IMG/VR virus record: IMGVR_UViG_3300030110_004345 | Coordinates: 38,474 to 102,473 of that record | From: a virus | DNA: 64,000 nucleotides | Strand: one strand, 5' to 3' | In this document: positions 5,522 to 17,018 of the stretch, in pieces | Layout of the letters: each line of letters opens with the position of its first letter | Position numbering within the stretch: the first letter of the stretch is position 1 | Translations under genes and position numbers: made by a program | Notes under the pieces: model-generated | Database searches by the model: none | Told to the model about the DNA's origin: nothing | Seen by the model: the letters and a program-made list of their open reading frames with translations, nothing else

Positions 5522-7384
5522 TTATGTAATCTCACAGGCGCCGCCTGCACAAGCCAGTTCGCCTTTGAGATCGGTATTGTCGGATACTTCAACAACTTTG
5601 GACAAATCAATGTCCTCTAGTGTGTCTAGCAGTCTATTGTAGGTTACTTCGTCGCAGTCTTCAAAGGGTGCTTGCTTATAAGTTCCGCCGTCATGAGGAA
5701 GAACTGAAAGACCGTTATAAACGGCTCTGTTATCCCACATCCATTGACCTACAGGCTCCCACTCTTCTTCACGGATGGAAACAGTAGCTGAAACATTGTG
5801 AGTGTTTTGACCTTTTCCGTGTCCGTTCTTTACCCACTGTGTAGATACTTTCTTTACTCTCTCCAACATATCCATAGCGGTTTCGCCTCGTGTGATCGCA
5901 CCTGCGGGTGCTTTCTGCGGAACAGAAATGACTGCGGTGTCATGTGGTCTGAAAAACTCGTCCTCGACCAAATCTGGGTGATAAACAGACAGGTAGTTGT
6001 AGATTGCCTCGTTTTTACCAACCCGTAGTCGACGAATGTAGTATTCATTGTGCCAAGCGTGGATACCAGAAGAAGTGCCAAGAGCTAGGCTTGTTGTTCC
6101 TGCTGGCTTTACACAAGTAGTCCGTGCTGCAGGTTTAATTCCTACGAGATTAGCGATTCTTTTATTTTCTTTCCTAACTTCTTTAGCTGCTTCTTTCATA
6201 TCCAGTTTTAGGACGTTACCAGAGGCAATACCAGTCATAGAAACACCCACAAGAGCGTCTTTTTCGGTAGTTCTACGCCAAACATCACGAAGATAGTGAA
6301 AGTCGGTGTAGGTTGCCTGTAATGTGCCTATGAAAGACGCTGCACGAGAGCGAGCGTTGATTTCTTCTTGTGAGTCAACGTCAGAAGCGTTGATTTCCGT
6401 AAGATTACAGAACTGATAAGGTCTTAGGGCAATCTCACAACACGGATTAGTGCCCCAGTCTTTATCATTTGAGAAATAAAACCCTGGTTCACCTGCTCCT
6501 GAAGCTTTTACACGAAACCAAAGGTCTTTAAAAAACTCTTCTGTGACCAAGTGACGCATAAGAACGATTGAGTTGTTTGCTCTACCACGTTGTGGGTTCT
6601 TTTCCCACCAATGTCCGCTTTTTGCGGAGATCATTTCATCATCACCAGCAGAGAATAGGGATATAAGCGCTGCTCGTCTAATGCCGCCAGCCAAAACTGC
6701 GTCAGCTATATAACAAACCATATCGTGAACTTCAATAGGAGTAAGTTTGTCGCCAACTTCCTTATTTGACAGAACGCCCTCTAGTTTGACTAAACACTCG
6801 CGGAGAGGTTGTGGTCCTGGGGCTCTACCTCCAGAGGTTACGAGACGAGCGCCTTTTGGTCTAATATCGCTGTAGTCAAAGCGAACTTTGGAGCCGCCAA
6901 CAAAATAAGACTTCATTAGAACCTTTACAGCGTCTGCCCAACCTTCTATGGAATCACCGATAAGATGGCGTCTAGTGCGCTTTGTAGATGGGTGAACAAT
7001 CTCGGGAAGCTCCCGTGTGTGATGAAATTGCACACTATAACCAACACCAGTGCCGCCGAGAAGTAAAAACATAACTTCATGAAACGAACGCCAATCATCA
7101 ATAGGAACATAGGCGCAATTAAAGATGCGATTAGGGGCAACTTCAATGGGCTTGCCGCCAAACTGCATAGAACGCATAGAAGGAAGAACTTTTTTATCGT
7201 AAACATATTGATAAGCTGCCTCTATTTCTTCTTTCAACTCTGGAAATTTCTTAAGGTGCATTCCTTTATTTCTGTCTACTAACTCGGACCATACTTCTCT
7301 TCTTTCTTTCTCGGGTAAATACTTTGCATACTTCATGTGGACAGTAATGTCCGACAGGGTTTTGTTAGCAATGTCTTGTGGCAT
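5522..7384 (-). CDS. nrdJ: Adenosylcobalamin-dependent (class II) ribonucleotide reductase
   Basis: 620 residues; reduces ribonucleotides to deoxyribonucleotides using a B12-derived thiyl radical. By the numbering of the Lactobacillus leichmannii enzyme the essential residues are present: Cys90 in RIFNCAYVP (C119), N313-P-C315-C-E317 (N406, C408 thiyl, E410), Cys326 in QFCNL (C419), and the C-terminal redox pair C612-AGGA-C617 (C731/C736 spacing). The GGTGVGYSVQF and PAGTTSLALGTSSGIH loops are typical. It is shorter than the 739-residue L. leichmannii protein. T4 uses class I NrdA/B; class II needs no oxygen but needs host cobalamin. It lies just downstream of the helicase gene and probably shares its promoter. 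Confidence 0.95.
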   Translation of the reverse strand: MPQDIANKTLSDITVHMKYAKYLPEKERREVWSELVDRNKGMHLKKFPELKEEIEAAYQYVYDKKVLPSMRSMQFGGKPIEVAPNRIFNCAYVPIDDWRSFHEVMFLLLGGTGVGYSVQFHHTRELPEIVHPSTKRTRRHLIGDSIEGWADAVKVLMKSYFVGGSKVRFDYSDIRPKGARLVTSGGRAPGPQPLRECLVKLEGVLSNKEVGDKLTPIEVHDMVCYIADAVLAGGIRRAALISLFSAGDDEMISAKSGHWWEKNPQRGRANNSIVLMRHLVTEEFFKDLWFRVKASGAGEPGFYFSNDKDWGTNPCCEIALRPYQFCNLTEINASDVDSQEEINARSRAASFIGTLQATYTDFHYLRDVWRRTTEKDALVGVSMTGIASGNVLKLDMKEAAKEVRKENKRIANLVGIKPAARTTCVKPAGTTSLALGTSSGIHAWHNEYYIRRLRVGKNEAIYNYLSVYHPDLVEDEFFRPHDTAVISVPQKAPAGAITRGETAMDMLERVKKVSTQWVKNGHGKGQNTHNVSATVSIREEEWEPVGQWMWDNRAVYNGLSVLPHDGGTYKQAPFEDCDEVTYNRLLDTLEDIDLSKVVEVSDNTDLKGELACAGGACEIT

Positions 7385-7394
7385 ATGTCTCTCC

Positions 7395-8753
7395 TTATTT
7401 GTTCATATTTCTAAAGACTTCTCGGGCTTTGGAGAACTCTTTTTGTTGTTGTTTTGCTAATTGTTGTTGTTGTAATTTTACAACGTCATCTCTTTCTAGA
7501 ACTTTAATAGACACACTTGATGTATCCATAAACGCGGAAAACACAATTCCATCAGGACCATTTCTGTTTTTGGCGACAAAAATACGCGCAATATTAGCAT
7601 TTCTATCCTTGATAGTTCTGGATAGACTAATAATAAAATCTGCAACAAAGCACTTGTTAAATGCTTCCGAGATTGACTCCATTGTGATTACTTCTTCGTT
7701 TAGACCCTTTCGGTTGGTTTGTGAGGCGGTTACTATAGGGCAACCAAACTCTTGTCCAAGTCCGCGTAGCTCTTCATAAATAGATTCTAATTCATGTCTT
7801 TTCTCAGAATTTTTACGAACTATTGAACTTTTTAGCAAATCGCCGTAGTCAACAACGATCATATCGATTTCCATTTCTGTTTGTCTGATCTTTTCCAAAT
7901 GGGTTTTAAGAGTTATAGTAGAAGCAGACTTAGTTGGAAACTCTTTTACAATAAGTTGCCCATCAATATCTTTGATTACGTCATAAACTTCATCTTTTTG
8001 ATTTATAAGCTCATCTAACGGAATCCCAGTAAGACAGGCATCATAACGTTGAGCAACGGACGTATCGGCAAGTTCTAGTGTAAAATGGACAACATTTTTA
8101 CCTTGTTTTAGGGCTTGTGCTCCAAGATGAACGAGAACGTGAGATTTTCCGGCTCCTGTTGGGGCAACTACAACTACAAGTTCGCCTTGACCTAAACCGC
8201 CCTTTGTTATCTTGTCTATTTTTGTCCAGCCAGTTGTTACTGGATTGCGGGCTCGTTCGATAAACCGAGCCTCAAAATCTTTAATATAATCATAGCCATG
8301 ATCATTACTTATGCCTAAACGTAGGGCATCAGCTATTAATTTTTCTATTTCCTCAAACGAACATTTGTTCAGAAGCGGCACAGACTTCATCATCGCCTTT
8401 TTAAGAACTTGTTTTCTGCAGAAGTCTACAGACTTTGATATTATATATTCTGTATCTTGTATCTCTGGAAAAGCCTGAACTTTTACAAAATAGTCCATGA
8501 CTTGTTTTTTAATTATTTCGTTTTCTTCTCCTAGTTCTGTATTTAGAACTGAGTTAAGTGTATCGTTTGTTGGGTGAATACCATATTCTTTTTTATAATT
8601 AAAAAGTTTGTCGGTAAAAACTTGAAGATATTTTAGCTCCAGATATTTAACATCTAATACTTCTTGCATCTGGTCGCAATACGATCGATCGTAAAGCATA
8701 AGCTTACACATATTTTCTTGGAAACTCTTTCCAAAAATTCCTAAACTGTCCAT
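7395..8753 (-). CDS. Replicative DNA helicase, DnaB/gp41 family
   Basis: 452 residues. The C-terminal RecA-like motor shows Walker A (VVVVAPTGAGKS, ending near residue 204), an H1a-type FTLELAD segment, Walker B (IDMIVVDYGDLL near residue 295) and an H3-type IVTASQTNR. The N-terminal 150 residues are helical, matching the primase-interacting domain of DnaB/gp41. It should unwind the fork 5' to 3' as a hexamer with the separate DnaG-type primase at 53-54 kb. The C terminus is rich in Gln/Lys (QQQQLAKQQQ). A good sigma70-like promoter precedes it, so it heads a transcript that includes nrdJ. Confidence 0.92.
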   Translation of the reverse strand: MDSLGIFGKSFQENMCKLMLYDRSYCDQMQEVLDVKYLELKYLQVFTDKLFNYKKEYGIHPTNDTLNSVLNTELGEENEIIKKQVMDYFVKVQAFPEIQDTEYIISKSVDFCRKQVLKKAMMKSVPLLNKCSFEEIEKLIADALRLGISNDHGYDYIKDFEARFIERARNPVTTGWTKIDKITKGGLGQGELVVVVAPTGAGKSHVLVHLGAQALKQGKNVVHFTLELADTSVAQRYDACLTGIPLDELINQKDEVYDVIKDIDGQLIVKEFPTKSASTITLKTHLEKIRQTEMEIDMIVVDYGDLLKSSIVRKNSEKRHELESIYEELRGLGQEFGCPIVTASQTNRKGLNEEVITMESISEAFNKCFVADFIISLSRTIKDRNANIARIFVAKNRNGPDGIVFSAFMDTSSVSIKVLERDDVVKLQQQQLAKQQQKEFSKAREVFRNMNK

Positions 8754-9385: not shown

Positions 9386-9763
9386 TTAACTTTGACGACT
9401 GAACAGGCTTTTTACATAACTTGTCCATGCCCAAAACTTTCTTTCTTCTAGGTAGTCTGGGTCTAGGTCGTTTGCGTAAGCTTCCACCTCAAATGGGTTT
9501 CCGTAATACGCCGCTTTCCAACTTCCCTTTGTGAAACGACCAATAACATAAAATAAACCATACAATATCCATTGAAGGACAAACAACATTTCTAATTGTT
9601 GTAAGAAGTGGATAGTTTCATGAGTTATTGTTTTCTCGCTTAACTGTCCACGGCAAACAACAAATGGTCCAGCAGAAAACGCCCATACGTCAATAGGAGC
9701 AATCTTTGATAGCCAAGATGGTAGTTTGCTATTTTCAATAAAAATTGGTTTTAAGTTCTTCAT
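9386..9763 (-). CDS. HExxH putative zinc metalloprotease-like protein
   Basis: 125 residues. ITHETIHFLQQ contains H48-E-T-I-H52, the zinc-binding HExxH helix, and NPFEVEAYAND about 40 residues later supplies a Glu as third ligand, as in gluzincin peptidases. Between them lies a hydrophobic stretch (about 59-75, MLFVLQWILYGLFYVIG) that may be a membrane segment. This is a minimal peptidase-like domain, possibly acting on a membrane or envelope substrate. It overlaps the exonuclease gene by four bases and precedes the secreted-protein gene. Activity cannot be inferred from the motif alone. Confidence 0.6.
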   Translation of the reverse strand: MKNLKPIFIENSKLPSWLSKIAPIDVWAFSAGPFVVCRGQLSEKTITHETIHFLQQLEMLFVLQWILYGLFYVIGRFTKGSWKAAYYGNPFEVEAYANDLDPDYLEERKFWAWTSYVKSLFSRQS

Positions 9764-10734
9764 TTATTAAGTTCCTTTTTATCCCTTTGGATTCTTGCGA
9801 AACTTTCAAACATAGCACTCCAACTGATCTCATTGATCCCATCCTCTAACATCATTTTATACGTTTGAGTTTTATTGAAGGTGTGTTCGAAGTTGTCAAT
9901 AATCCATTCGATGCTCTGTTTAGTCTGCGCCGAAAGGCTTGGGCTATACAGTTGCATCAGGTTATAATTAGACTGAATAAGTGGTTTATTCTCTTTTATA
10001 GAGGTGAACGCTTTAGCATTACTTTCTTGATTTTCACAGAACTCTATCAAATCATTGACATAAACATCCTCTTCTTTTTCGAAGAAAGGGAAGCGTTTAG
10101 CAACTGTTTTCAGTCCAATACCGGGAACTCCATCTAGATTATCGGATTTATCTCCAACAATAGCACGAGCAAGGGCAAAATTGTTTGGATGTATGCCGTG
10201 CTCTTCTATTATACTATTTTGTGTTAAAAGCTTTTTCTGCACAGGGCGATATAAAATAGTATTTTGATCAAGCAACTGATAAAAATCTTTATCGCTTGAG
10301 ACAATTACCTTTTGATCGTCGCGGAAACAGCTATAACGACACAAGTAAGAGATAATATCATCTGCTTCAACTTCATCTGCGATTAGCTGCATAACTGGGA
10401 AGTTATTTAAATACTCACAGATCCTTTCTTGTTGCCAGATTTTATTTTCTTTTTCTTGATCCTCAGTTAAAACCTTAAAGTTGCGGTTGAGACGAATAGG
10501 TGCTCTACCTTCTTTATAGTTTTTATTTTGCTGCTTCCGCTTGCGACTGCCGCCGCGACCATCCCAACAAACAACCACCTGTGTAGGCTTCATTTCTCGG
10601 CAAAGCTTTTGAAGAGATTTAAGAAAGCCAGTTGTTCCCCCAATGGGCTGACCTTCTTTAGAAAGCTGTGGAACTACAATGTAACTTCGTAGAAACATAT
10701 TTAGTCCATCTATAATGATTACTCGCTCGCTCAT
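9760..10734 (-). CDS. 5'-3' exonuclease / flap endonuclease (T4 RNase H-like)
   Basis: 324 residues. Removes RNA primers and 5' flaps during lagging-strand synthesis. The acidic metal-site motifs are visible: IIIDGLNMFLRS at the N terminus, VVVCWDGRGG near residue 56, IADEVEADDIISYL near 118 and VIVSSDKDFYQLL near 142. IVGDKSDNLDGVPGIGLKTV then gives the helix-3-turn-helix DNA-binding element. Length and layout match the FEN family (T4 rnh is 305 residues). The family A polymerase at 14.5 kb lacks this domain, so the gene supplies the missing activity in trans. It is followed four bases later by an overlapping HExxH gene. Confidence 0.9.
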   Translation of the reverse strand: MSERVIIIDGLNMFLRSYIVVPQLSKEGQPIGGTTGFLKSLQKLCREMKPTQVVVCWDGRGGSRKRKQQNKNYKEGRAPIRLNRNFKVLTEDQEKENKIWQQERICEYLNNFPVMQLIADEVEADDIISYLCRYSCFRDDQKVIVSSDKDFYQLLDQNTILYRPVQKKLLTQNSIIEEHGIHPNNFALARAIVGDKSDNLDGVPGIGLKTVAKRFPFFEKEEDVYVNDLIEFCENQESNAKAFTSIKENKPLIQSNYNLMQLYSPSLSAQTKQSIEWIIDNFEHTFNKTQTYKMMLEDGINEISWSAMFESFARIQRDKKELNK

Positions 10735-10742
10735 ATTCTACC

Positions 10743-11855
10743 TTACGCAGTTTCCTCGTAGAACTCAGTAGCATCACCAGTTCGTTTATCAAACTTGCGA
10801 ACAACTTCTTCATCCATTATTTCAAGAACTCGTGCTTTAAATTTATCATCTTGAAGCTTGTCAATCCAACGTGCAGACTGAAACTTTTCGCTTGTGCCGT
10901 CTTCGAACTTAAGCTCATACCAAGCTCCGGCGCGATCTAAGTGTTCGGATCCTTGGATAGCATCAAACCAACTTTCTTCGTCAGCAACACCGACTTGATC
11001 ACCCCAAAGGATTTGAAACTTACATTGTCGTCCTTGTGAACCAAAACGAGACTTCTCTAGCTTAACCTTGACAGTGTTGCCAATACGATAGCCTTTGTCG
11101 TCAGTTACAAAAGAAGCTTTTGCTTTTGGTCTAGTCAACCATACCCGCAATGAATAAGAATAAATCATTGCCTTGCCACCCGGTGTTACATAAGGTGTAG
11201 TAAGTGTTTCCGATGGTGATCTAGTAATATTTGTCTTAAGCTGATTCAGCACTAGAAATGTCGATTGACTATTCGCGATAGGAACAGTTAACTTAGACAT
11301 ACCCTTTGCTAAAATTCGTGCTTTTACAGCCATACTAGACTGTGGATTGAAGTCACCCTCAACATCAGAGATAGAAGGAGTAAGAGCCAAACTATCCCAG
11401 ATAAAAAGAAACTGACTATCTGTAGAAGAAAGTAGTTCCTCCATTGTCTCCAAAACAAACTCTACCGAGGTTGCTTGGACATATAAAATCTTTGATGGAT
11501 CACACCCCGCTTTCTCTAAGAAGCTGAAGTCTAATGAAGACTCTGAATCAAAGTAAACAACATCAATGCCCATGTCTTGAGCGTTGCCTGCTATTTGTGC
11601 AGCCATATAAGACTTGCCACTTGCTTCTAGTCCAGCTATCTCTGAAACTTTGCCCACTGGAATACCAGCCAGCTTACCACGGCAGATAATACTATCGAGC
11701 CATCTTGATCCAGTTGGAATCCATTGTTTTACCGTTGTTGGATTGTTTGGATCTGCTAGATCCACAGAAACTTCTTGTCCTGCTTTTTTATTTATTAGTT
11801 TTCTCATCTGGTCCATCGATAGACGACCAGCGGATTTCTTTTTAGCCAATCTCAT
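10743..11855 (-). CDS. uvsX: RecA/UvsX recombinase
   Basis: Forms filaments on ssDNA and promotes strand exchange, needed for recombination-dependent replication. Walker A is EIAGLEASGKS, Walker B is QFLFIWDSLAL and the L2-side NSQSTFLVLNQL segment is present. The frame is open back to 11918, but I chose the ATG at 11855 (MRLAKKKSAG) because GAGGAGG lies directly upstream. This overlaps the preceding small gene by 14 bases. Length is about 370 residues, near T4 UvsX (391). Neighbours are the exonuclease and, upstream, the SSB. Confidence 0.9.
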   Translation of the reverse strand: MRLAKKKSAGRLSMDQMRKLINKKAGQEVSVDLADPNNPTTVKQWIPTGSRWLDSIICRGKLAGIPVGKVSEIAGLEASGKSYMAAQIAGNAQDMGIDVVYFDSESSLDFSFLEKAGCDPSKILYVQATSVEFVLETMEELLSSTDSQFLFIWDSLALTPSISDVEGDFNPQSSMAVKARILAKGMSKLTVPIANSQSTFLVLNQLKTNITRSPSETLTTPYVTPGGKAMIYSYSLRVWLTRPKAKASFVTDDKGYRIGNTVKVKLEKSRFGSQGRQCKFQILWGDQVGVADEESWFDAIQGSEHLDRAGAWYELKFEDGTSEKFQSARWIDKLQDDKFKARVLEIMDEEVVRKFDKRTGDATEFYEETA

Positions 11856-12168
11856 GTTCCTCCTCTGTTTGATCACTTCTATCTGGTCTAAAGGCATATA
11901 TAGGACCACGATAGCCACGTTTATCTATCTTCATAGAAACATTGTCTCCAAAGTCTCTGACCTCTAAAATATAATCTTTAGATCGTTGGATTAGATTTGA
12001 AACATCGCTGTTATCAGACCAAAACCAAGCAAATCCTTCTCTAATATCTTGCTTTGAGGCATATGCCGAGGACTCACTATTTGGACCCCCACCAAGACCT
12101 TTGTATCTGCTTGCTAGCTCCCGTAGAGCGTCCTCGAAACCATCGTCTCCTTTTTTCCATTTTTTCAC
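11842..12168 (-). CDS. Hypothetical protein, GTG start
   Basis: 108 residues with no recognised family. It starts with GTG behind AGGAGAAA. The N terminus is basic (KKWKKGDDG), the middle is Gly/Ser-rich (LGGGPNSESSAY), and the end carries basic YRGPIYAFRPDR followed by an acidic tail. It overlaps the uvsX start by 14 bases, so translation is coupled. Position between the SSB and UvsX suggests a recombination accessory role (the place of a UvsY-type mediator), but no sequence similarity to UvsY is evident. Confidence 0.65.
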   Translation of the reverse strand: MKKWKKGDDGFEDALRELASRYKGLGGGPNSESSAYASKQDIREGFAWFWSDNSDVSNLIQRSKDYILEVRDFGDNVSMKIDKRGYRGPIYAFRPDRSDQTEEEHEIG

Positions 12169-12178
12169 AGTATTTCTC

Positions 12179-12466
12179 CTAAAAAATATAAGTTGATTGT
12201 GTTTTCTTTTCTTGTGTTTGTTTTTTTATCAACCCAAACTTGTCTTCCATATTTTCGTAATCGTCATAGAGATCGCTTGGTGTTGCTTTAATGTTCATTT
12301 TTATTGTTTTATATTTGGTTTTTTTATCTGTGATTTCATATTTGAAGTGACCCATAAAGCCGCCGTAAACTCTGACACGACCGCACTCACACTCTCTTAG
12401 GTCATCTGTTGCTCTTGAATAGACAGTTGTATTACACTCTTCGCAATGAATCGCTCTTACTAGCAA
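12179..12466 (-). CDS. Small zinc-ribbon protein, TTG start
   Basis: 95 residues from a TTG at 12466 behind AAGGAAGGA. A longer in-frame start at 12520 would translate the SSB terminator hairpin and is therefore unlikely. The N terminus holds CEEC (about residues 7-10) and CEC about 18 residues later, a probable zinc ribbon. A basic beta-rich core (GHFKYEITDKKTKYKTIKM) and a charged tail follow. It lies immediately after the SSB terminator, so it is either read through or started by an unseen promoter. No family name is assigned. Confidence 0.6.
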   Translation of the reverse strand: MLVRAIHCEECNTTVYSRATDDLRECECGRVRVYGGFMGHFKYEITDKKTKYKTIKMNIKATPSDLYDDYENMEDKFGLIKKQTQEKKTQSTYIF

Positions 12467-12493
12467 TTTTGTCCTTCCTTTCGTGATAAAAAT

Positions 12494-12516
12494 AAAAAAG
12501 GGGGGACAAGCCCCCC
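12494..12516 (-). terminator. Intrinsic terminator after the SSB gene
   Basis: On the minus strand GGGGGG, loop CTTGT, CCCCCC, then TTTTTT and further T/A. It lies six bases after the SSB stop codon. Confidence 0.85.
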
Positions 12517-12522
12517 ACAAGA

Positions 12523-13266
12523 TTAGCTACCTAGTAGCTCAGAGAATGCCTTGTCGACATCCGAAACCGATCCAGCAGTGGATACTGCTGATTGATTGGC
12601 GACTGTCTCGTCAACAGTGTTGAGGAAACGGTCAAGAATGTCTGTAACCTGTGTTGTGGTTCGACGAGCATCTGAAAAGACCTCATCAAAATCAGGCACG
12701 GATTCCATGAGAGTTCGCGCTTGTGTCTCATCTTCGTGAAGAAGAGAAGACTTACGCCGAGGAGTAATCTTGGTCTCAGGGAAAGATGCCCCTGCTGGCT
12801 TTGAGTAGCCAATCACCAAGTCAGTTCCCTCTGACGGGTCTGTGATATCGCCATACTCTGGGTTAAGAACAAGACCAAGTAGAGTTTCATAAGCACGCTT
12901 ACCAAATCCCCAAACCTTTACGCCTTCTTCCTCTTGTCCTCGGACAAGAACTGGAGCAAAGAAACGTTGCTTCGCACCTAGCTTACGTGCTACACGCTTG
13001 GACTCTTCAGAGCCTTCACGCCATAGGGCACGCACATAGTCATCGAGTGGGCAGTCCTCACCAAAGTTACGCTTTGGCGAAAGAAATCCAGGCTCACCCG
13101 CTACGTCATAGTGAAACCAAAAGTCTCGGAAGGGGTCGCCGTCCGATGGAGCTACCAAACGAATAGTTTGTTCACCCTCTTGTGGTTTCCAAAAGTTGTT
13201 CTTCTTATTTCCGTTTCCTTGTAGCGCCTCTAGACGAGCACGCATCTTCTCCATATTAATTCCCAT
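12523..13266 (-). CDS. Single-stranded DNA-binding protein, gp32-like
   Basis: 247 residues. The layout follows T4 gp32: a basic N terminus (MEKMRARLEAL, GNKKNNFWKP), an OB-type core with EQTIRLVAPSDGDPFRDFWFHYDV and ARKLGAKQRFFAPVLVRG, and a Ser/Thr/Val-rich tail. T4 gp32 binds zinc through one His and three Cys; here only one Cys (GEDCPLDDY) is present in that region, so the zinc site is lost. The acidic C terminus that recruits partners in T4 is only mildly acidic here. An intrinsic terminator follows directly, consistent with high expression. Confidence 0.85.
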   Translation of the reverse strand: MGINMEKMRARLEALQGNGNKKNNFWKPQEGEQTIRLVAPSDGDPFRDFWFHYDVAGEPGFLSPKRNFGEDCPLDDYVRALWREGSEESKRVARKLGAKQRFFAPVLVRGQEEEGVKVWGFGKRAYETLLGLVLNPEYGDITDPSEGTDLVIGYSKPAGASFPETKITPRRKSSLLHEDETQARTLMESVPDFDEVFSDARRTTTQVTDILDRFLNTVDETVANQSAVSTAGSVSDVDKAFSELLGS

Positions 13267-13305
13267 AATTATTTTCTCCTTAGTTAAAGTCAGTGCGTTG
13301 ATCTT

Positions 13306-14154
13306 TCACACTGCTAGTTGTTGTATTAAAGTGCTGCTTTTTTCGCAGTAAGCTATAAGCTCATTATAATCAGTTGAGTGAACTGAGTAAGTAGTTTTCA
13401 TTTTTTCGTGTTCTATATTTGATTTTAGGTTTCCACGAATAACCTCCATAAGATTAGGATCTTCTTCTAGTTGTTTTTTCGGAACTCCATAATAATAACT
13501 TTTTTCTCTTGGAATGTCAAGCTCAAAAAACATATTTTCTTGATTATTTTCTGGATTGAGTAAGCCAAAGGTGGATACACGAGCAGTATCAATACGCTTT
13601 GTTTGCGTGGTCATTACTGGTTGTGTATTTTGAAAAACATTTAACATGTGATATGTTGTTGCCACCAAGTTATTCATTGAGTCCCACAACTTCATTATTG
13701 GAACAGGACCCATTATACCAGATAATTTAGAATTGTCAACTAAAAAAACACGGTCTAGTAATCCTGATCGGGCATATTCTTGAAAGACGTTGAAAAGTAA
13801 GTTGTTTTGTAGAAGTTTTTCACCCGCAAGGTCGTCTCTCTGTGGGAGGATATACACTACTTGTATGTTTGTTTTCTTGTGTATCTTTTGTAAAATCTTC
13901 AGGGAAGCACCAGAAACAGCACCACAACTTGTGATAAATAAAGTTTCGGACATCACCCCCTCTAAGAAGTTATTAATACCTTTCGGTAGATTATTTTTTT
14001 CATAAAGTTCGGGACTGTCCTGATGCTTAAGACCAAATGTTGTTTTGGTCTTTTTTAGACCTACATCTATTTTTTTTATTTGATATTGTGGGTATTGTGA
14101 CAGATGATCTGCTATGTTGCAGCCTGCTTTACCCAAACCTATGACGGTTTGCAT
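13306..14154 (-). CDS. FtsZ/tubulin-superfamily-like GTPase, divergent
   Basis: 282 residues. Landmarks of the FtsZ/tubulin nucleotide domain appear in order: VIGLGKAGCN at 4-13 (the FtsZ T1 loop GxGxxGxN), LFITSCGAVSGA at 72-83 (position of the T4 loop, where FtsZ has F-I-T-A-G-x-G-G-G-T-G-T-G), QVVYILPQRDDLAGE at 98-112 (FtsZ V-x-x-V-x-x-P-F-x-x-E-G) and LDRVFLVDNSKL at 133-144 (FtsZ D-x-x-I-V-I-P-N-x-x-L). The T4 glycine signature is degenerate, so GTP binding may be altered. The C-terminal third could be the second domain. It lies between the SSB and DNA polymerase genes. PhuZ of nucleus-forming phages is a precedent for phage tubulins, but this one is shorter and does not look close to it. 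Confidence 0.5.
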   Translation of the reverse strand: MQTVIGLGKAGCNIADHLSQYPQYQIKKIDVGLKKTKTTFGLKHQDSPELYEKNNLPKGINNFLEGVMSETLFITSCGAVSGASLKILQKIHKKTNIQVVYILPQRDDLAGEKLLQNNLLFNVFQEYARSGLLDRVFLVDNSKLSGIMGPVPIMKLWDSMNNLVATTYHMLNVFQNTQPVMTTQTKRIDTARVSTFGLLNPENNQENMFFELDIPREKSYYYGVPKKQLEEDPNLMEVIRGNLKSNIEHEKMKTTYSVHSTDYNELIAYCEKSSTLIQQLAV

Positions 14155-14177
14155 TTATTCCTCTTTTAAGCTATTTT

Positions 14178-14492
14178 TTATTTATCAACAGGTAATGTTT
14201 CCTCTAGTTCTTTTAATTTTGTATCAAAGATATTCGGAATAGTTTCAGAAATGTTAAAGTAGCTAATGATATCTAAAAGTCTTTCAACATAAGGCAGTTC
14301 TCTATCGTTTATACGTTCCATACCAGACACCGCCATCGTTCTCATCCTTCTTTTTATTTCGTTTTTAGTTTTTATTTCGTCTCGACTTGGGTTTTCTTTG
14401 TCTTCGTCTGGCTTTGGATCTTGCTCGTTATTTGTTAGATTTTCTATTTCTTCTAAAATAATTTTTTTTAATTCTTTTTGTGTAAGCTGCAT
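14178..14492 (-). CDS. Hypothetical protein with QLxxIIxEE-type N terminus
   Basis: 104 residues from the second of two close ATGs (14492, with GAGGG six bases upstream; the other ATG is at 14498). It starts MQLTQKELKKIILEEIENL, a short amphipathic motif that recurs in two head-region proteins of this phage (35578-36000 and 36002-36946). A charged linker rich in Asp/Glu/Lys/Pro follows, then a helical C terminus with LPYVERLLDIISYFNI. No family is recognised. It lies between polymerase and the FtsZ-like gene. Confidence 0.65.
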   Translation of the reverse strand: MQLTQKELKKIILEEIENLTNNEQDPKPDEDKENPSRDEIKTKNEIKRRMRTMAVSGMERINDRELPYVERLLDIISYFNISETIPNIFDTKLKELEETLPVDK

Positions 14493-14501
14493 ATGCATCC
14501 C

Positions 14502-15689
14502 TCATTTGATGTGTAAAGGTTTCATACCTGACCAGTTTTTTCCACCTTCGTGGTTTATTTTAAACTTGCCAAACCTAGTATTACTAAATAGTTTAGAGAT
14601 TTGGTTTATGTCATATTGATCTTCTTCTGCCAGATCAATAACTAAACTATCGTGGTTGCAGAACTTAACAAAAGACTTCTTGTCCTCAAGAAACTCCCAA
14701 ACTTTATACATTTGCTCAAAAACTAGATCCGCTGCTGTGGATTGGATAATATAACTAATAGCATGATCCTCATCGGCATCAATCTCACGACCGAACTGCG
14801 TGTAAACCTTACCCAAAACTTTATCAAAATACATATCTTTTAGGATTTTACGGTCGTAAATCTTATCAACCTTATCGTCGGTGCTGTTTGGGTTATAAAG
14901 CCAAGAAAAAATCCTTTTCTTTGCATTTTCTCTACTTTTAGTTCTGGTGAAAACATTCTTTAAGTTCCAGTCGTGCAAGTCCTCTTCGGGTTGGTCATGA
15001 CCAAGAAGAGCAAGGGCAATGCGCAATTCACAAGCATTGAAATCCAACTCATAAAGCCAATCGTTAGTGGGGGTTAGGATCTGACGATATTTCTTTGGAA
15101 GCGTCATTACTGGAAATGAGTTTGTCTTAGTCGCCAAGCGACCTGTGACTGTTTTAAACATGTCATAATCAATATAAGGCTTACAGCCACTCACAGTCTT
15201 AAACATGTTTCGGTCTTGAACTGTAAGTCGTTCTATCTTTGTTGGATCGATATTGACCTTACGGTTTTTGATATCTGCGATAACTTTGTTAATCTTGAGC
15301 AACTGATCGTAGTTTGTGGGTTTTGGATAGTTGGTAAAGATGTCTTCACAGATTTTATTTTTTATCTCTGCAAAGTTTTGCAAATAATGACTTGGGATTA
15401 GGTCATATAAGCAATGATCGTCAAGAGTTAGACCTACTTCGTTTGCTGCTTTGAACGCTGCTTTGATTCTTGCTTGGACTGCGGACCACTCCCCTCTAGA
15501 ACCTTCTGGGCAAAGCTCGTCCAGGGATTTACCCCCGGTGTAAAGATTAGCATACTCGACCTCCTTGTCGCGTAGATAAGTAGCATAAGACCAAGTTTTG
15601 GTACAATTGTCTGTAATTTGTTCGCTAAATGTTCCTTTTCTATAGATTAGGGAACATTTATTTTTTTCGTCGAATGTCTGGAAAAGCAT
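14502..15689 (-). CDS. Compact family A DNA polymerase (no exonuclease domain)
   Basis: 395 residues covering only thumb, palm and fingers. All pol I motifs can be placed: TGRLATKTNSFPVMTLP from 182 (motif 1), DFNACELRIA from D216 (motif A, D705 in Klenow), R253-x3-K257-x3-F261-x3-Y265 (motif B, O-helix), QSTAAD from 316, and H346-D347-S348 (motif C). Motif C normally reads HDE; Ser at the third place is unusual. Motif B to the Q-x-x-x-x-D helix spans about 50 residues against about 95 in Klenow, so the fingers are reduced. There is no 3'-5' or 5'-3' exonuclease domain; the latter is encoded at 9760-10734. T4 uses a family B enzyme here. Confidence 0.88.
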   Translation of the reverse strand: MLFQTFDEKNKCSLIYRKGTFSEQITDNCTKTWSYATYLRDKEVEYANLYTGGKSLDELCPEGSRGEWSAVQARIKAAFKAANEVGLTLDDHCLYDLIPSHYLQNFAEIKNKICEDIFTNYPKPTNYDQLLKINKVIADIKNRKVNIDPTKIERLTVQDRNMFKTVSGCKPYIDYDMFKTVTGRLATKTNSFPVMTLPKKYRQILTPTNDWLYELDFNACELRIALALLGHDQPEEDLHDWNLKNVFTRTKSRENAKKRIFSWLYNPNSTDDKVDKIYDRKILKDMYFDKVLGKVYTQFGREIDADEDHAISYIIQSTAADLVFEQMYKVWEFLEDKKSFVKFCNHDSLVIDLAEEDQYDINQISKLFSNTRFGKFKINHEGGKNWSGMKPLHIK

Positions 15690-17018
15690 TTAGTATCCGC
15701 TGGTTGAGCCACCAGTTGTATTATCAAAAAATGAAGATGGGCTGGTGCCGTTAACTTGTTGCTGGGTTAATATACCAGTATTGGTAGGTGCTGTCAAGTA
15801 GTTTTTATTTTGGGCTCTCATTTGAGCTAAAAAATCAGATATCGCCACTGTGGTTTGAAATATATCTTTTGATTTTAAATTAGATAACATCCTTCTATAT
15901 AATTTTATTTTATTTTTATTATTTAATTTTATGCCCTCTTCTATTAATCTTATATCCAAATATCTTTTTAAAAATTCTTTTTCAGGATATATACTAAGAA
16001 ATGTGTCATAGTCTATTTGATTGTTGTCTGGAAATTCATTTGGTCTAGCTCTTATTATTCTTTCTGTTTTAAACGTTGATTGTAAAAAATTGTCTTTAAT
16101 ACAATTTTTTTGTATTATCTTTTCTATTCTTGGTTGAAAATCAATAAAACCTACATATGACAGGTACATGTATTTTTTAAATGAAATATAACTAATATAC
16201 TCAGCTTGAAAATAACTTAAGTTAAAGTTTTGTACATCATTTCCTATACCGTAGGGAGCCATATATTTTTTAAGCTGTTTTGAATTCAAGTTTGCAACTA
16301 TTGACCACGGTATGTGCTTGTTGACATAAAAACCATAAGACGCAGCAATTTTAATATAATCTGTAAAATAATCACTTGAAAGAAAATTATTCCATTTCGG
16401 GGCATCGCTACCATACTCACTATCATCAGAAAATTCAATAATTAATCCACTAGTTCTAGAACTACAGTTGACAGATGATAAATAACCTGCTAAGGTATAA
16501 GGAAAGACAGGATTGATAAGACAATATTGATAAAATTTGTCTGCATACTGCTTAAAGCTAGAGATAGTGTTTTTATCTTTTTTAGATAAAAACATATTAA
16601 TAAAATTTAGATCGATAGTTTGATTAAAATATTGATTATATTCACCTATTAAATCTTGATAAGCTTTTTTTGGATTTTCGATATCAATTATTGTTGTCAT
16701 ACAAGTTCTAAAAGAGTCTCTGGCATTTAATATAAATTGAGTCATTTCATTGTAAGCATCAACAACAAAGTTAATAGCCAACAATTCTTCTTTATCTGTT
16801 AAATATTTCAAAGACGTTGGCTTTGGATATACATATCTTTGCTTTGTATCGACTTTTCCCCACAATGGTCGACCATACCAAAAATCAATCGGTCTGGATA
16901 ATCCAGGAGAAACAGGGTAAATGTTTATGTTTCTTTGGTAATACTCTCTTTGGTTGAATAAGTAATCCGCTGGTAAATTATTTCTAGCAAAGGGTGCTAT
17001 GTTTATATCTCTAGGCAT
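15690..17018 (-). CDS. Probable structural protein (baseplate region)
   Basis: 442 residues, unrecognised. Rich in Tyr, Asn and Phe, as are neighbouring baseplate proteins. The N terminus contains YPVSPGLSRPIDFWYGRP, and the C terminus becomes Gly/Thr/Ser-rich (GTSPSSFFDNTTGGSTSGY), a typical virion-surface end. It immediately follows the hub protein in the transcript. There is no obvious ribosome site before its ATG, and CTATTTATA ends three bases before the start codon. A tail or baseplate role is inferred from position only. Confidence 0.65.
   Translation of the reverse strand: MPRDINIAPFARNNLPADYLFNQREYYQRNINIYPVSPGLSRPIDFWYGRPLWGKVDTKQRYVYPKPTSLKYLTDKEELLAINFVVDAYNEMTQFILNARDSFRTCMTTIIDIENPKKAYQDLIGEYNQYFNQTIDLNFINMFLSKKDKNTISSFKQYADKFYQYCLINPVFPYTLAGYLSSVNCSSRTSGLIIEFSDDSEYGSDAPKWNNFLSSDYFTDYIKIAASYGFYVNKHIPWSIVANLNSKQLKKYMAPYGIGNDVQNFNLSYFQAEYISYISFKKYMYLSYVGFIDFQPRIEKIIQKNCIKDNFLQSTFKTERIIRARPNEFPDNNQIDYDTFLSIYPEKEFLKRYLDIRLIEEGIKLNNKNKIKLYRRMLSNLKSKDIFQTTVAISDFLAQMRAQNKNYLTAPTNTGILTQQQVNGTSPSSFFDNTTGGSTSGY

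Follow-up and report, generated by a model that had tools for sequence, protein, structure and literature searches.

TUB, as the gene product described here is called, is phage-specific and, by its predicted structure, belongs to the tubulin/FtsZ superfamily, from whose other members it has diverged strongly. It is inherited vertically with the DNA polymerase throughout its clade. The protein was previously unannotated, and the phage is known from metagenomes only. Fold and core status were computed, and it is the function that we infer: the best explanation, with a probability of roughly 0.45, is that TUB is a nucleotide-binding tubulin with impaired hydrolysis that has a structural role within the machinery of phage replication. 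The gene lies in the window, that is, the whole stretch of 64,000 nucleotides that was analysed, which is part of a virus record of 107,477 bases.

13306 to 14154, minus strand: TUB, predicted tubulin/FtsZ-superfamily protein with degenerate T7, 282 amino acids (ORF, family, AlphaFold2/Foldseek and dN/dS)

The ORF, read from 14154 to 13306 with an ATG start and an AGAGG-type ribosome site, is real. The dN/dS values of 66 close pairs are low (median 0.10, maximum 0.16), which indicates purifying selection on a working protein. In IMG/VR, a single-sequence query gave 102 confirmed relatives and an alignment query at least 596 candidate stretches, down to 35% identity, in records that are mostly fragments; the gene was present as a single copy in all eight records searched for this. 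TUB has no match in PHROG or NCBIfam, and it scores 13.7 bits against the Pfam Tubulin family PF00091, below the gathering cut-off of 33 bits. The best score for this Pfam family among 31 TUB family members is also sub-threshold (E 0.0059). Furthermore, tblastn found no relative at E <= 10 among 50,697 phage records, and no published description was found in a literature search that excluded most subscription journals and preprints.

The AlphaFold2 model of TUB, built from 31 family rows, reached a pLDDT of 93.9 and a pTM of 0.91. When this model was compared with the PDB by Foldseek, the best match had an E-value of 3.7e-13, with a TM-score of about 0.7 across both domains, and the 50 matches listed were all FtsZ, TubZ or tubulin. 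The model of a second member, L079 (37% identical to TUB; 21 rows, pLDDT 92.2), gave a best E-value of 1.7e-14 and superfamily proteins only among the matches listed, although the two models are not fully independent because most of their alignment rows are common to both. Both present the two-domain tubulin fold, with the GTPase domain, H7 and the C-terminal domain. The FtsZ/tubulin-like nature proposed by the sequence-only reading is therefore borne out over the full length of both models. The profile comparison that it had called for pointed the same way: hhalign of the TUB family against 20 FtsZ sequences gave an E-value of 3.4e-5, whereas the controls gave 0.19-0.75 (shuffled columns) and 0.31 (reversed profile), and the match to PhuZ was much weaker (E 1.1e-3). 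By these profiles and models, the resemblance of TUB to FtsZ exceeds chance. A SirA match among PDB sequences (E 0.024) was discarded, being short, low-scoring and unseen by the fold search. It should be noted that, since the T4 signature GGGTG[TS]G is missing, TUB is assigned to the superfamily solely by its fold and as a branch that has diverged.

The elements of the nucleotide site were located on the protein and their conservation was counted across 43 family members.

14119 to 14142, minus strand: T1 nucleotide loop IGLGKAGC, residues 5-12, from conservation in the 43 members
13891 to 13938, minus strand: end of S4, shortened T4 loop and start of the next helix, FITSCGAVSGASLKIL, residues 73-88, from conservation
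13765 to 13794, minus strand: helix H5 signature FNVFQEYARS, residues 121-130, the best-conserved block of the family
13723 to 13749, minus strand: S6/T6, VFLVDNSKL, residues 136-144, with N141 nearly invariant
13630 to 13698, minus strand: core helix H7, residues 153-175, from DSSP of the model, with the HM(L/I)NV motif at 169-173
13582 to 13629, minus strand: T7/H8 region, residues 176-191, with no conserved Asp or Glu and no H8 helix

In the T1 loop, G6, G8 and G11 are present in 43/43 members and C12 in 42/43. Position 141 in T6 is Asn in 42/43, and in H7 the residues N161 and N172 are found in 42/43 and 43/43, respectively. Placed by alignment, N161 falls at the guanine-contact position of FtsZ and tubulin, which both touch guanine at this H7 Asn. 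Hence, TUB may well contact a guanine nucleotide through its T1, T6 and H7 positions, as far as the residues can tell.

The remaining elements are altered or lost. The degeneracy of the T4 GGGTGTG loop, already reported from the sequence, extends to the family of 43 members, where the loop has become shorter and reads S/G-C/G-G-x-[VI]-S-[GA]-A-S-L, with S81 in 40/43 and L85 in 43/43, and some sub-clades retain GGG or GSG. The T7 acids (NxDxxD/E) are missing, since Asp or Glu reaches at most 23/43 in any column from 170 to 191, and the only acid of the window's TUB in this stretch is D189, in a variable column. By profile alignment HMLNV lands on FtsZ GLMNVD, whereas the models put it inside H7; the conserved acids are missing under either mapping. 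Moreover, helix H8 is absent from both models: in TUB, H7 ends at residue 175 and S7 starts at 193, with no helix between them. In a filament, each subunit contributes its T7 acids to its neighbour's active site, which is thereby completed. This has been described for a phage tubulin as well (PMC3678025). Their loss predicts a very weak canonical GTPase and, taken together with the shortened T4 and the missing H8, makes canonical GTPase-driven dynamics unlikely. The protein ends about 8 residues past the last strand and carries neither a linker nor the C-terminal conserved peptide for FtsA/ZipA.

Regarding the landmarks that had been picked out before, the four positions are right (GLGKAGCN at 6-13, LFITSCG..SGASL at 72-85, ILPQRDDLAGE at 102-112 and VFLVDNSKL at 136-144) and three of them are conserved. 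ILPQRDDLAGE is a weak landmark because it is mostly unconserved, with only Y101, P104 and L109 kept. The strongest signature of the family, FNVFQEYARS in H5, was not among them. The loss of the T7 acids and H8, also unmentioned there, is more important than the T4 degeneracy and lowers the prospect that TUB forms canonical, GTPase-driven filaments.

The gene is part of a one-directional cluster in the order polymerase A, 106-residue ORF, TUB, SSB, two small ORFs, UvsX, 5'-3' exonuclease, DnaB helicase and ribonucleotide reductase.

14502 to 15689, minus strand: family A DNA polymerase, 395 amino acids (PF00476, E 1.1e-10)
14178 to 14498, minus strand: ORF of 106 amino acids between polymerase and TUB, a variable slot, with an N-terminal LKKIILEE motif
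12523 to 13266, minus strand: gp32-like single-strand DNA-binding protein, SSB (PF08804, E 2.4e-13; phrog_1192)
10743 to 11918, minus strand: UvsX-like recombinase (phrog_97, E 4e-51)
9760 to 10734, minus strand: 5'-3' exonuclease (PF02739, E 1.9e-29)
7395 to 8753, minus strand: DnaB-like replicative helicase (phrog_19, E 7.3e-72)
5522 to 7384, minus strand: ribonucleotide reductase (phrog_367, E 9.3e-129)

In the window the SSB gene starts 39 nt downstream of TUB, and the gap between these two genes is 13-96 nt in 70 of 75 cases. Polymerase and TUB are directly adjacent, with a gap of 32 nt or less, in 46/64 relatives, and the slot between them is filled in the other 18/64. The placement of the gene between SSB and polymerase thus stands as cluster order, but in the window the 106-residue ORF, which has no Pfam or PHROG family match, intervenes on the polymerase side. 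The description of the phage as T4-like is correct for the virion, given that the record of the window encodes a Gp20 portal (PF07230), a Gp23 capsid protein (PF07068), a gp21-type protease (PF03420) and a T4-type terminase (PF03237). It does not extend to the polymerase, which is of family A and not the family B gp43 of the T4 replication module.

Core status was assessed on loci selected by their SSB gene and not by TUB. This selection gave 90 loci, 73 of them with at least 950 bases upstream of SSB, and TUB was directly upstream of SSB in 73/73. A search that started from the SSB of Microcystis phage Mel-JY01 gave sister-type loci; TUB was present in 0/64 of those with enough upstream DNA. 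Neither was it found in Mel-JY01 itself, in Flavobacterium phage immuto or in the uncultured phage LR756508, of which the last two have the same polymerase-SSB-UvsX arrangement as the TUB phages. In the sister set, the slot before SSB is occupied by a family of about 130 amino acids (71 ORFs in 80 loci). Descent of TUB from this sister protein was not supported, as hhalign gave no convincing similarity (E 0.033).

In their protein distances, TUB and the polymerase correlate (r 0.96), as do TUB and the exonuclease (0.93) and TUB and SSB (0.91), values that 0/500 permutations reached; the correlation is lower, 0.61 each, with UvsX and with the structural-side neighbour at 15690-17018. The mean distance of TUB (0.465) is like that of the polymerase (0.484). 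The presence in 73/73 loci, the absence from the sisters, the co-divergence and the tight spacing indicate that TUB is fixed in one lineage and inherited with the polymerase.

In the reading that we prefer, TUB would still bind a guanine nucleotide, with poor or no hydrolysis, to judge from its residues. Poor or absent hydrolysis suggests that it would work as a stable, nucleotide-loaded scaffold or a slow oligomer, which could organise or dock the polymerase, SSB and the recombinase. The invariant face of H5 (FNVFQEYARS) may be the binding surface, and TUB would act otherwise than as a dynamically unstable cable of the PhuZ kind. Gene neighbourhood and co-divergence favour a role in replication over one in host takeover, although neither proves contact. 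Against a replication part it can be said that neighbourhood alone is no proof of partnership, that inhibitors of the host can be early genes too and that the co-divergence with UvsX is weaker (r 0.61). Since the sister clade replicates without TUB, it is not a universal need of the replisome. A fuller scenario, in which one T4-like lineage acquired the protein a single time, in the slot of the unrelated sister protein of about 130 residues, and the tubulin fold gave up GTP hydrolysis and became an obligate subunit or scaffold of the phage replication machine, is offered tentatively and may easily be wrong.

A true cytoskeletal filament, that is, a head-to-tail GTP polymer with slow or unconventional hydrolysis that positions or segregates the replicating phage DNA like PhuZ/TubZ, would agree with the full two-domain fold, the conserved T1, T6 and H7 and the behaviour of the known phage tubulins (PMC3678025, PMC4244570). 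We consider it unlikely: the conserved acid of T7 and H8, both belonging to the canonical longitudinal interface, are lost, no tubC-like repeat array lies in 12000-16000, the profile similarity to PhuZ is much weaker than that to FtsZ, and no chimallin match was found in G000 and five related records (possibly incomplete ones, searched with no positive control). It is rather unlikely, too, that TUB antagonizes the host FtsZ as a dead FtsZ-like subunit, which would cap or co-assemble into host filaments via its nucleotide face and halt division during infection. FtsZ is indeed the closest PDB fold among the matches listed, the missing T7/H8 face would make a one-sided, capping subunit, and unrelated phage inhibitors of FtsZ are known, namely Kil (PMC3961180), T5.008 (PMC10714956) and T7 Gp0.4 (PMC13423816). 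However, TUB and the polymerase evolve at the same pace and are inherited together, and TUB is present in 73/73 clade members, unlike typical accessory host-takeover genes, and its best-conserved block is H5 and not the nucleotide or interface loops. The literature search found no precedent for a degenerate FtsZ-like inhibitor (ARC3).

Two further explanations concern the nucleotide site itself. A pseudo-tubulin that keeps the fold, with a dead nucleotide site, as a structural adaptor only would account for the shortened, variable T4 loop and the lost T7, but it is improbable, as the near-invariant Gly of T1 and Asn of T6 and H7 are hard to explain without a ligand. The family could also consist of Rossmann proteins that bind NAD(P), with a GxGxxG misread as T1, considering the Rossmann-like N-terminal GLGxxG, the weak, sub-threshold Pfam TrkA_N matches in some members and the alcohol dehydrogenases at E about 1 in a profile search of PDB sequences. 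This dehydrogenase reading, hardly credible now, is contradicted by the fold searches of both models, in which the matches listed are all of the tubulin superfamily, full length and at a TM-score of about 0.7. A Rossmann or other unrelated fold is what the sequence-only reading had named as its refutation, and it did not occur.

Assignment of TUB to FtsZ proper, PhuZ or TubZ was rejected in each case despite the superfamily fold. With bacterial and archaeal FtsZ, its best Foldseek match in both domains, it has in common the T1 G-x-G..G-C-N, the T6 Asn and the H7 position, but the identity in structural alignments is only about 10-17%, its length is only 282 residues, and T4 GGGTGTG, T7 N-x-D-x-x-D, H8, the disordered linker and the C-terminal peptide are all missing. 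Among phage tubulins, those characterised are PhuZ, from nucleus-forming phages, and the partition proteins of the TubZ type (PMC3678025, PMC4244570); a survey of jumbo phages reported two FtsZ/tubulin types (PMC7824862), and work on huge phages reported PhuZ homologues (PMC7162821). Like PhuZ (phiKZ gp39), TUB is a phage-encoded protein of the tubulin superfamily. Nevertheless, it has no tblastn link to a collection with 179 PhuZ-matching records, reaches only E 1.1e-3 in hhalign and lacks the long C-terminal tail, and its gene belongs to a polymerase/SSB cluster in phages whose virions are T4-like. TubZ of the plasmid and phage TubZRC partition systems is alike in fold and appears among the top 50 Foldseek matches, whereas TUB has lost T7 and sits in a lytic-type replication cluster, none of its neighbours was recognised as TubR-like by general family matching, and only two short two-copy repeats, and no tubC iterons, were found in 12000-16000.

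FtsZl1 is a cellular branch of the superfamily whose T6-H7/T7 region is also non-canonical (Makarova and Koonin 2010, PMC2875224), but it retains GGGTG(S/T)G and in most cases carries long extensions of coiled coil, while TUB keeps H7, has a degenerate T4 and bears no extension. Three BFVD proteins of uncultured phages annotated as FtsZ/tubulin (A0A6J5RW92, A0A8S5UFG9 and A0A8S5USZ9) match its fold with E-values of 1.3e-11 to 1.3e-5 and TMq of 0.56-0.77; they are longer (347-452 residues) and 12-13% identical, and it is the fold that links them to TUB.

TUB is a lineage apart from PhuZ and TubZ, invisible to Pfam thresholds and PHROGs. A large group of phages with T4-like virions has it as a fixed gene of the replication cluster, and it lacks the residues on which the dynamics of tubulins depend. 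This suggests that phage DNA replication can make use of the tubulin fold with no turnover driven by GTP; if this is true, a cytoskeletal fold was recruited as a replication part and not as a cable. Furthermore, this small protein would allow nucleotide binding, assembly and hydrolysis to be tested separately in the superfamily.

A cellular origin of TUB was also considered and rejected, as the single relative from a scan of genome contigs lies in the bacterial 'chromosome' of a WOR-3 MAG (CP070664.1). There, a short phage-like polymerase-TUB-SSB-UvsX stretch (L146:7514-12873) stands beside runs of undetermined bases and probably came into the bin as a scaffolded phage fragment. Being most likely a scaffolding chimera, it was not used as host evidence.

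Some observations were made on the neighbouring genes. The polymerase at 14502-15689 has only 395 residues; its best stretch in Pfam covers just the C-terminal portion of the polymerase domain, and detectable relatives of this protein are present in only 3 of 50,697 phage records. Beside it, a protein of 442 residues (15690-17018), with no PHROG or Pfam match, is conserved in position and fast-evolving (mean distance 0.75). Downstream of SSB, 12179-12520 encodes a zinc-ribbon-like protein (DUF7695) that recurs in many relatives and is moved or absent in others. The sister family of about 130 residues (MKTQLLCTFT...NKIYVFQNE...CTYNVEY...HRKKNTNTLYTINALN; L265-L344, L178:1346-1801, L177:5675-6064) has no clear PHROG match, and searches of the window and of loci L001-L081 returned no member. 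Finally, the ORFs in the slot between polymerase and TUB (14178-14498 in the window; L007:6911-7992, L022:7006-7991, L028:3351-4330 and L036:7064-7979) are short and start with MK[LI]T[RK]xxLKQLIxEE. They often precede an ORF starting with M(SxM)KLIMENWRxY, an N-terminus that may resemble the one that directs T4 internal head proteins to the capsid.
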